The position numbers and the translations under genes are program-made. A DNA stretch of 37,480 bases from an uncultured Erythrobacter sp. (GTDB lineage: Bacteria > Pseudomonadota > Alphaproteobacteria > Sphingomonadales > Sphingomonadaceae), in NCBI GenBank assembly GCA_938015255.1, contig CALLQC010000070.1, forward strand, positions 1-37,480, in the 5' to 3' direction. Within the stretch, counting starts at the first letter, position 1; each line of letters starts with the position of its first letter. This document shows, piece by piece, positions 22,803 to 26,218 of this stretch. Under the pieces are notes generated by a model that was not told the origin of the DNA, ran no database searches, and worked only from the letters and a program-made list of their open reading frames with translations.

Positions 22803-22878
<76 letters not shown>

Positions 22879-22892
22879 AACTTTCCAAGCGG

Positions 22893-23585
22893 TTAGTCGG
22901 AATTCTCGTCAGACGCGATTTGCGGTTTGTGAGCATTTTGTGAGGTGCCCAGTGATGGGTCTCGCAAAATCGGCAGGAGCACGCTCTCAAGCGAATCAAT
23001 CGCCTCATCGACAGCGACGCCAATCGGATTACGTTCGGGGACGGTCATTCCCATATCCCACATGTCTTGCTCAATCTTCGTTGTGAAATCGTGGTCAGTC
23101 CTTTTGTCGGTCGAATACATATCGGCAGACACATTCACTCGCGTCACCTGCTGCCAAAGTTTTTGAAGCTGTGCTTCGACGTCTTCACCGAAATACGCCC
23201 TCGCCTTCGGCATAACGTCGAAGATGCGCTCCCAATCAGCATCATATCGTTTCAAGCGCAGTCGGATTAACTGCCCTTGTTGTGCTTGCCGCTGCTTGTC
23301 TTCGGGAAGGCTCTGATACCATTTCGCACCTTTGAGGATCTCGTGCGCCGCTTCACTCTCGTTGCCGCCGCTCATGGGACTTCGAACGGCCGCAAGATTG
23401 CGTTTGATGCGATAGGCGAGCGTCAACACATCATCGGCTGTTTCAAGTCGACGTTCGAACAACTTCTCTTGTCGAAAGCCGTCGATGGTGTTCGCTGCGC
23501 GCCACGCCGCGTAAACAACCGCAGCCACGCCAGCCCACGACGCGAGGGCTCCGATCATCGATCCTGTTGCCGCCCAATCAATCAT
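22893..23585 (-). CDS. membrane-anchored hypothetical protein, partner of TIR protein
   Basis: 230 aa; N-terminal TM GSMIGALASWAGVAAVVYAAWRAA then soluble helical domain; start codon overlaps the TIR stop (TAATG). Confidence 0.7.
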   Translation of the reverse strand: MIDWAATGSMIGALASWAGVAAVVYAAWRAANTIDGFRQEKLFERRLETADDVLTLAYRIKRNLAAVRSPMSGGNESEAAHEILKGAKWYQSLPEDKQRQAQQGQLIRLRLKRYDADWERIFDVMPKARAYFGEDVEAQLQKLWQQVTRVNVSADMYSTDKRTDHDFTTKIEQDMWDMGMTVPERNPIGVAVDEAIDSLESVLLPILRDPSLGTSQNAHKPQIASDENSD

Positions 23586-24679
23586 TAGAACGGCACATCG
23601 TCGTCGAGGTCATCGTATCCACCCTTAGTGTTTTGATCGACCAGCTTCCTGTCCTTGATGACCCAACTGCCGTCGGTGGCACTATCTAGATATTTGATCA
23701 GCCTGCGATGGTGATTCACAAGATAAGCTGCTCGATACAATTGATCGTTCTTTGCGAACGCAGCTACGATCTTCGAAACCTGCTCCTGCGTCAGTTTCTC
23801 AACGTGTGACTTAAGCCTTTCAAACCGAGAGCGAGCATCTGACCAATCCTGAGCGCCGCAGAAGCTGTTTACGAGAATGTCGTTCAATCGTTCTAGTCTC
23901 CGAAGGCGGTCGCCAATGGTGGGAAACAAATCCTTTGCCGCCTTGATCGGATTATCGAGAGAACCTTTTTGCGCTTGCTTCTTCGAGATGAACCCACGCG
24001 GATCCTTTTTTCCGACTTTAAGCGAAATTACAGGAACGCCTCGCCCAAGCGCATAACCCACCTCCTGCATGCAATAGACGGAGTCATGGAAATCGTCGGT
24101 AACTACGGCGACCATCAACTCCATTGTGTCTAACCCATCTTCGATGACTTTTTGCCATTCTTCATCGGCGGGGATCGTTTCGTGTGCAACGAAGCAGGAC
24201 ATTCCGTAGCCTTCGAGTGCGTCTGCGAGATTTTGCACTCGCGCCTTTTCACCATCACGGTGGCTGATGAAAATGCGCGCTAGGCCCGGTTTCCAAATAG
24301 AGACGTGATCGGGGTTGACTGTTGGCTTATCGGAAAACGGCGTCGCGCCTTGGTACTCTGGATCATTCTCGTCTTCGGCTTCAAGCAAGACATCGTGGAC
24401 GTGTTCGTTTTGAGCCGTTGAGATACGCTGAATGTCCGCCTGAATGGCATTGGAGAGTATCGTCAGGTCGTCCGGTTCTATCTCAGCTAACGCCTCCATA
24501 GGAGCAAATAGCACAAGCGAGTGTCCTGTGCTTTCGTTGTAGTTATCGAAATCCACGCCCTCACGGAGTTCCCAACGTCCGTTCGCGATTAGGCCGTGAC
24601 GAGTAGAGTCCTTCTTCCGTTCGTAAACAGCGGCAAGCTGTTTCAAATACTTTGGCATCTTTGTCCGCAATACACTCAT
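23585..24679 (-). CDS. TIR domain-containing protein with SSB-tip-like C-terminus
   Basis: 364 aa; ARIFISHRDGEKARVQNLADALEGYGMSCFVAHETIPADEEWQKVIEDGLDTMELMVAVVTDDFHDSVYCMQEVGYALGRGVPVISLKVG is TIR-like; ends YDDLDDDVPF. Confidence 0.85.
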   Translation of the reverse strand: MSVLRTKMPKYLKQLAAVYERKKDSTRHGLIANGRWELREGVDFDNYNESTGHSLVLFAPMEALAEIEPDDLTILSNAIQADIQRISTAQNEHVHDVLLEAEDENDPEYQGATPFSDKPTVNPDHVSIWKPGLARIFISHRDGEKARVQNLADALEGYGMSCFVAHETIPADEEWQKVIEDGLDTMELMVAVVTDDFHDSVYCMQEVGYALGRGVPVISLKVGKKDPRGFISKKQAQKGSLDNPIKAAKDLFPTIGDRLRRLERLNDILVNSFCGAQDWSDARSRFERLKSHVEKLTQEQVSKIVAAFAKNDQLYRAAYLVNHHRRLIKYLDSATDGSWVIKDRKLVDQNTKGGYDDLDDDVPF

Positions 24680-24944: not shown

Positions 24945-25208
24945 ATGACCAGTATGCCGAAGGGTCGTCAGACCCATGTCATTGCGAATGCTCTCGCGAC
25001 CGCCATTGTCTTCTTTGACGAAGTGATCGAGGAGAAGCGCTACATTCGCCACAGGGACGTCGGCGATATGCGCAAGCTGCTCGCTCAGCACAACGGCGAG
25101 AAAGTGTATCTGCTTGAGGCGAAGAACCGCCTCCGCGTTTGGCCTCAATCGCAAGAGGAAGCGATGGAGCTCGCTAAAGCGTTCGTCGCCGAGATCAACG
25201 CGGAATGA
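24945..25208 (+). CDS. hypothetical protein
   Basis: 87 aa from MTSMPKGRQTHVIANALATAIVFFDEVIEEK...; ATGA overlap with next ORF. Confidence 0.55.
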   Translation: MTSMPKGRQTHVIANALATAIVFFDEVIEEKRYIRHRDVGDMRKLLAQHNGEKVYLLEAKNRLRVWPQSQEEAMELAKAFVAEINAE

Positions 25209-25600
25209 CGACTATCTTCCATTTGGGAACGCCGAAGAACGACGGGTGGCAGTGGCTCGAAAATCGCTACTGTCGCCGTCGGCTTGTCTCGCTCTATCAG
25301 GGCTACCGTGCGCCGGTTCTGCAATGGGCGCGCGATACAAGGGCCTGTCGCGACGAATATGCGCAAGCGATGGCGGAAGGTCGGGAACACGACGACTTTG
25401 CGTTCTACGCCCGTCGCTACCCCGCTCTGAGGCAGAAGATCGCGCTCACCCATGAGCTGCATTTTTGCGCCCGCGAGAACACCGGAGGAGCAGGTTGGGA
25501 AGACTACAAGAGAAATTTCCTGTCGCTCGCTGACAGGTCGCGTGGTCTGCAGATTTTCAAACAGGCGGATCGAGGTAAACTATGCGTTCCGATCGTCTGA
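25205..25600 (+). CDS. hypothetical protein
   Basis: 131 aa; translationally coupled to the previous ORF (ATGA). Confidence 0.5.
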   Translation: MTTIFHLGTPKNDGWQWLENRYCRRRLVSLYQGYRAPVLQWARDTRACRDEYAQAMAEGREHDDFAFYARRYPALRQKIALTHELHFCARENTGGAGWEDYKRNFLSLADRSRGLQIFKQADRGKLCVPIV

Positions 25601-25762
25601 TACATTGTCAGCAGACCGCTTCTCGTCTGCATACTTTGAACTATCGACGACCAGCATGCCATCGCGGCGGACCGCGTGCTTTCGCACCTCAGTCCAACTT
25701 CGCCCGAACCGCTCGAATGTCTGGCGCGCGACTTGCAATGATTTGTCGGAGTTTATCCGCAT
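25580..25762 (-). CDS. possible small ORF
   Basis: 60 aa MRINSDKSLQVARQTFERFGRSWTEVRKHAVRRDGMLVVDSSKYADEK...; hydrophilic and protein-like but unsupported by homology. Confidence 0.25.
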   Translation of the reverse strand: MRINSDKSLQVARQTFERFGRSWTEVRKHAVRRDGMLVVDSSKYADEKRSADNVSDDRNA

Positions 25763-25855
25763 AGGGCAATTGTAAACGAGGCTGGCGAAAATAAAAATGG
25801 TAGCATTCATTTTTGGAACCGACCGCAGTTTGGGAGTGAGAGGCGGCGTAGTAAC

Positions 25856-26218
25856 ATGAGCGAAATACCAATGTTCGAACGCAAATGGCCAGTGCCACAA
25901 ACCGGAGCTGAGGCGGCGGACCTCGCCATAGCGCTGATGATTACCAAGAAACAGTTGGCTTCTGTGATTGACGTTTCACCATCTTCGCTATCTCGGCCGA
26001 AGCTGTCTGATAGTACTAAGAAGCAGCTTCGCCCTCTTCTCGACGTTTTCAATCCCGCGATATGGATGGCGCGAGATGAGAAGCGCGCTGCATTCTGGAT
26101 GAGCCACCAGCACCCGCAAGGAATGGGTCCTGATAGCCCGCTAGACTGGATCGCGAAAGGCAAAGCACAAATGGTTAAGTCCGCACAGGAAGCTGTACTT
26201 ACAGGTTGGTACGAATAG
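25856..26218 (+). CDS. MbcA/ParS/Xre-like antitoxin (toxin-binding domain-like)
   Basis: 120 aa; N-terminal HTH-like ITKKQLASVIDVSPSSLSR; C-terminal AFWMSHQHPQGMGPDSPLDWIAKGKAQMVKSAQEAVLTGWYE resembles the DUF2384-type domain. Confidence 0.6.
   Translation: MSEIPMFERKWPVPQTGAEAADLAIALMITKKQLASVIDVSPSSLSRPKLSDSTKKQLRPLLDVFNPAIWMARDEKRAAFWMSHQHPQGMGPDSPLDWIAKGKAQMVKSAQEAVLTGWYE

Follow-up and report, generated by a model that had tools for sequence, protein, structure and literature searches.

SpbK, a TIR-domain antiphage protein of Bacillus subtilis that cleaves nicotinamide adenine dinucleotide (NAD+), has a further domain N-terminal to its TIR domain and is carried on a mobile element. We know of no tip in SpbK resembling the C-terminal end of a single-stranded DNA-binding protein (SSB). 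TIR proteins of the ThsB and ThcB4 types belong to Thoeris, and PD-T7-3 is a single-gene antiphage protein of Escherichia coli. Several other defence systems, AbpAB, Hna, Retron-Eco8, Nhi and Hachiman, are triggered by phage SSBs (PMC10732053). The Sak4 protein of phage HK620 requires the NDYPPF tail of its SSB (PMC5928155), the Sak and SSB proteins of phage 80alpha act through C-terminal regions (PMC11846896), and both Sak4 and Sak contact the last 6-7 residues of SSB (PMC5928155, PMC11846896). The binding of YbcN to SSB likewise depends on the SSB tail (PMC4118853), and phage recombinases are the targets of various defence systems (PMC11846896). Here we describe a TIR-domain gene in a 37,480-nucleotide stretch of DNA from an uncultured Erythrobacter sp. 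(contig CALLQC010000070.1, hereafter the window), the product of which ends in a near-copy of the tip of its host's own SSB and belongs to a family in which most members carry such a tip.

The initial annotation of the window described the minus-strand protein encoded at 23585-24679 as ending in an SSB-like acidic tip; the coordinates, the frame and the quoted peptide all proved correct. The open reading frame (ORF) of 364 residues closes ...NTKGGYDDLDDDVPF-TAA, and the C-terminus of the protein reads KGGYDDLDDDVPF, followed by TAA. The genome to which the window belongs has one copy of ssb, located elsewhere, whose product ends GGGYDDLDDDIPF. Over the last 12 residues, the TIR protein (GGYDDLDDDVPF) and the host SSB (GGYDDLDDDIPF) are equal at 11 of 12 positions, the sole change being Val/Ile. 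The nucleotides of the two tails differ at 9 of 39 positions, mostly synonymously, so that the likeness lies at the level of the protein; the same differences rule out a recent gene conversion from the 3' end of ssb. The ending DDLDDDVPF-stop shows what defines an SSB C-terminal tip (SSB-Ct), namely acidic residues followed by a hydrophobic residue, Pro and Phe at the extreme C-terminus, and the likeness extends to a disordered linker. The protein is not itself an SSB, since it gave no match to the oligonucleotide/oligosaccharide-binding (OB) fold of SSBs; its tip is instead fused to a TIR effector. We saw no sign of a frameshift or sequencing artefact in the gene, a concern raised initially for the C-terminal frame, and a homologue from Qipengyuania aestuarii with 53% identity along its full length ends alike in YDDLDDIPF.

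Relatives were drawn from genomes of the same family, order, class and phylum, from plasmids and viral contigs and from one genome scan, which left a set of 27 after near-duplicates (90% identity in the TIR domain) and one partial gene had been dropped. No family members were found in E. coli genomes or GenBank phages, and a viral scan with a later family alignment (A2) returned no additional relatives. An intact xPF ending is present in 18 of the 27, and 13 of these endings fit the strict acidic-[ILV]PF pattern; the tip is present in 20 of the 27 once two damaged genes are counted, so the homologue check proposed at the outset found the tail conserved beyond the window protein. Further intact tails are EWDDIPF, NDEIPF, EDEEIPF, GDLDDDIPF, DDAVPF, DDDDIPF, EVDDLPF, ESDDIPF (Klebsiella plasmid), PDEDLPF, SEAIPF, HELPF, SAIPF and SAQVPF. 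In the first damaged gene, on a Megaira plasmid (L006 5951-6062), NDEEIPF lies past an in-frame stop; in the second (L202 / L021), VLDDEIPF lies in the +1 frame, and the SSB of L021's host ends SLDDEIPF. The premature stop and the frameshift could reflect recent inactivation of a costly gene or an assembly error.

Across these 20 tips, Pro and Phe are present in all (20/20) and I/V/L occupies position -3 in 18, with an acidic residue at position -5 in 75% and at position -4 in 70%. Within a close clade of nine members, the final five positions hardly change, in contrast to most of positions -16 to -8. The rest of the protein is more modular: at least two unrelated N-terminal domains occur in the family, the alpha/beta domain of the window protein and a four-helix domain (IGRELQSRM type) that takes its place in many relatives according to alignment and models, and short members lack the C-terminal helical region wholly and retain the tip. 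In these alignments, the tip thus persists through the family whichever other domains accompany it.

None of 77 other TIR_2 proteins, all of which had a resolved C-terminus and most of which came from proteobacterial genomes, has a [hydrophobic]PF ending. In a background of 670 distinct ORFs of at least 150 residues from all DNA collected, xPF endings were found in SSBs, in the TIR family and in two others, a Megaira plasmid ORF with an acidic DDLIPF ending and an ORF ending IPPF without acidic residues. The former is a 158-residue hypothetical protein of Candidatus Megaira plasmid pMegNEIS296 (L006 7449-7925) that ends LIDDLIPF, and the same plasmid carries a member of the TIR family. Fisher tests of the family against the controls gave extreme p-values, which are only nominal because the sequences are related. 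The control TIR proteins and the background ORFs lead us to reject a chance origin of the tip; as far as these sequences go, TIR proteins at large do not share it. A literature search, conducted largely without subscription papers, brought up no account of a TIR protein with an SSB-like tip. The initial statement that no standard TIR architecture carries this tip therefore holds for the searchable literature, but not in the sense of a one-off, since the tip is common to a whole TIR family.

It seems very improbable, and was already disfavoured by these comparisons, that the tail is functionless, having arisen as an acidic terminus by chance or been left behind by recombination with ssb. Relatives without a tip and the weak acidity of some tips would fit such a tail, but it recurs in most of a divergent family against 0/77 controls, remains fixed after a variable linker and differs from ssb in its DNA at synonymous sites. 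Homologues with an intact TIR domain and no tail had been named beforehand as evidence against a meaningful tip. Such relatives do exist, but they are dispersed among tip-bearers on the family tree, the deeper forks of which are poorly supported, and this scatter fits repeated loss rather than chance gain. Near-identity to the host SSB tail, conservation in the family past a variable linker and absence from other TIR proteins together give strong support to the tip being a selected SSB-Ct mimic, as its resemblance to SSB had first suggested, and we propose that it would bind SSB-tip receptors. The TIR tails also fit the SSB tail of their own host better than those of shuffled hosts (permutation p=0.006, 11 hosts), a result that is suggestive only, because related hosts share both SSB tails and TIR tails.

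Pfam TIR_2 matches residues 136-227 of the window protein (E=9.7e-15, 55.6 bits against a curated cut-off of 28). AlphaFold models of this protein and of a relative, built from an alignment with plasmid-derived rows left out, reached a mean predicted local distance difference test (pLDDT) score of 84-85; the last 12 residues are disordered in both, as expected of an SSB-like tail, with pLDDT <50 for the window tip. The nearest PDB folds to the window TIR domain are SpbK (the best), BtpA/TcpB, PdTIR and AbTir, with SARM1 also matched. For the relative, SARM1 and BtpA were closest, and AbTir bound to an NAD analogue matched at a template modelling (TM) score of 0.74 to the target. The glutamate of YCMQEVGYAL, which the initial annotation had placed at the catalytic position, corresponds to E206; it is invariant in a family alignment of 20 sequences and aligns with the W-C/T-x-x-E motif of AbTIR. 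The protein thus has both a TIR fold and the glutamate of a W/Y-C/T-x-x-E motif expected of NAD+-cleaving TIR domains, from which we infer that it is probably an NAD+-cleaving enzyme.

With respect to known systems, SpbK comes closest to the TIR domain in structure and gave a weak PADLOC match (spbK), but the N-terminal domains of SpbK and the window family differ. Thoeris models matched the TIR domain in both PADLOC and NCBIfam, although the ThcB4 score was 38.4 bits against a cut-off of 220 and the ThsB models matched weakly, the best at E 8.7e-4. Beside the TIR gene, the window shows no gene recognisable as a ThsA-like effector, as the neighbour at 22893-23585 stays below threshold for every family in Pfam, PADLOC and NCBIfam, and Thoeris identity is ruled out by score and by gene pairing. 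The C-terminus of PD-T7-3 matches the helical region of two family members (E about 1e-6), but over about 80 residues only, positions 339-417 of a 432-position model. With most of the model unmatched, the proteins are not PD-T7-3, and their C-terminal helical part looks distantly related to it. Nor is PD-T7-3 a tip-bearing relative, as L074, which is related to its C-terminal part, has no SSB-like tip.

The surroundings of the family's genes are those of defence loci and mobile elements. Within type I restriction-modification (R-M) loci, members are found between hsdS/FRG and hsdR (L087) and between hsdS and hsdR (L201). At L195 the neighbours are a type III methyltransferase and a UvrD helicase of NERD/GajB-like type, and at L084 the TIR gene directly follows a D5-type primase-helicase, an enzyme characteristic of P4-like satellites. 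Two further members have a terminase beside them (L082) or lie downstream of a portal gene (L086). Restriction loci of types I and III, satellites, prophages and the integrase-bearing island of the window described below are thus all represented. The arrangement between hsdS and hsdR is seen at L201 (8384-12683) and L126 (1-8227), which come from unrelated sources; one of these two type I loci has an FRG-domain gene (PDC-S15), the other a nucleotidyltransferase domain in an ORF of the HsdS region. Directly 3' of the Qipengyuania homologue, a 790-residue protein without a Pfam or PADLOC match is encoded (L010 6214-8586, plus strand).

Judged from its sequence, the window protein is most likely an antiphage NAD+-cleaving TIR effector. 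The explanation to which we give about half of our confidence is that this effector is recruited by its SSB-tip mimic to proteins that bind SSB tips, and that the resulting clustering leads to NAD+ cleavage. The flexible tip would dock in the pockets by which replication and recombination proteins of the host or the phage bind SSB tips, with PriA, RecO, RecQ, Exo I and chi as candidate host receptors and annealases, recombinases and primases as candidate phage receptors. Many of these receptors are multimeric or would be concentrated on replicating phage DNA, and could gather several TIR proteins, whose self-assembly would bring about NAD+ cleavage and abort the infection. The variable N-terminal domains might provide a second input or hold the TIR domain off. 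Phage partners for the tip are made plausible by analogy with Sak4, Sak, YbcN and the phage-SSB literature. As with AbpAB, Hna, Retron-Eco8, Nhi and Hachiman, SSB biology would be tied to abortive infection; those systems respond to phage SSB, whereas here the defence protein would itself bear an SSB tip.

In a narrower form of this explanation, only phage proteins would be relevant partners of the tip. Annealases, recombinases, mediators and primases that need the host SSB tail would seize the tip as an integrated decoy and so trigger the TIR domain, a version that we hold tentatively and find rather doubtful. It would agree with a tip that nearly copies the host's own tail and is not a generic acidic tail, with the host-matching trend, with the location of family genes on satellites and prophages, and with the dependence of HK620 Sak4 and 80alpha Sak on SSB tails in a class of recombinases that defences target; abundant host tip-binding proteins would bind the decoy too, however, and constitutive activation would have to be prevented somehow. 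If it were right, and our confidence in this is low, a widespread TIR family would sense infection by an SSB-tail decoy, with phage SSB-tip binders triggering NAD+ depletion, as a bacterial counterpart of the integrated decoys of plant nucleotide-binding leucine-rich repeat (NLR) proteins.

A different possibility is a guard against replication damage, in which the tip, parked on a host receptor, keeps the TIR domain inactive until phage SSB or free host SSB tails displace it and free the NADase. The tip would be ideally suited to compete with SSB tails, and the triggering of AbpAB and the other systems named with it by phage SSBs (PMC10732053) would suit such a role. We nevertheless consider it quite unlikely, as the short family members have little but TIR and tip to restrain, and as the abundant SSB tetramers of uninfected cells would compete constantly.

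Several observations weigh against recruitment of the TIR effector through its tip. The window protein exceeds the curated cut-off of no known defence model in PADLOC or NCBIfam. Seven of the 27 relatives, including L020 at a type I R-M locus and the viral-contig group L031-L037, have no tip, so that the family can do without it in some contexts. Acidity is weak in some of the tips (SAQVPF, SAIPF, ELSIPF), and position -3 is P or T in some. The comparison with host SSBs covers few hosts, and related hosts have SSB tails as well as some TIR lineages in common.

In the window itself (Table 1), the gene that overlaps the stop codon of the TIR gene is probably co-transcribed with it, to judge from this arrangement, and its product is a possible partner of the TIR protein; no counterpart was seen beside the Qipengyuania TIR homologue. 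The gene order rodA - luxR - winged helix-turn-helix (wHTH) - tRNA-Lys is conserved in several genomes of the genus, and none of 10 congeners examined has the window's genes within about 1.5 kb past the tRNA. The tRNA-Lys side is likely the insertion site of an island, and the integrase likely marks this island as mobile. Between the TIR gene and the integrase, the plus strand (25205-26218) encodes a 131-residue ORF without a family and a 120-residue Xre/ParS-antitoxin-like protein, for which no recognisable toxin partner was found in the island. With an integrase and an Xre-like protein past the tRNA, on the side that varies in the genus, the TIR gene is therefore probably part of an integrated island. 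A search for attachment repeats gave no convincing pair.

Table 1. Coordinates of the TIR gene, its parts and neighbouring features in the window
Feature	Coordinates	Strand	Basis or remark
TIR-domain gene with C-terminal SSB-like tip	23585..24679	-	364 aa, ATG start, uninterrupted ORF
N-terminal alpha/beta domain (aa 1-128)	24296..24679	-	AlphaFold model and family alignment; no Pfam match
TIR domain (about aa 134-238)	23966..24280	-	Pfam TIR_2; fold matches SpbK, BtpA/TcpB, PdTIR, AbTir and SARM1
Codon of E206, candidate catalytic glutamate (YCMQE206VGYAL)	24062..24064	-	Invariant in 20 sequences; AbTIR alignment
C-terminal helical region (about aa 244-348)	23636..23950	-	Alignment and AlphaFold; weak match to PD-T7-3 C-terminus
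SSB-Ct-like tip GGYDDLDDDVPF (aa 353-364)	23588..23623	-	Predicted disordered; resembles host SSB tail and family tails
Overlapping downstream gene, 230 aa, hydrophobic N-terminus	22893..23585	-	ATG overlaps TIR stop (TAATG)
tRNA-Lys	22803..22878	+	Variable side in genus lies beyond the tRNA
Phage-type integrase, 212 aa	26355..26993	+	Pfam Phage_integrase 1.4e-21

The recognition of infection by most stand-alone TIR proteins is a standing question in the field. A conserved handle of six residues, for which binding pockets have already been mapped in many proteins, makes the recognition question directly approachable, since it comes with a list of candidate partners, and SSB biology already recurs as the trigger of several defence systems. 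The presence of these tails in most of the distant relatives suggests that these TIR proteins detect invading viruses by plugging into the machinery of DNA replication and repair. If this is true, immune proteins would be copying the peptide of a host replication hub in order to watch phage DNA metabolism.
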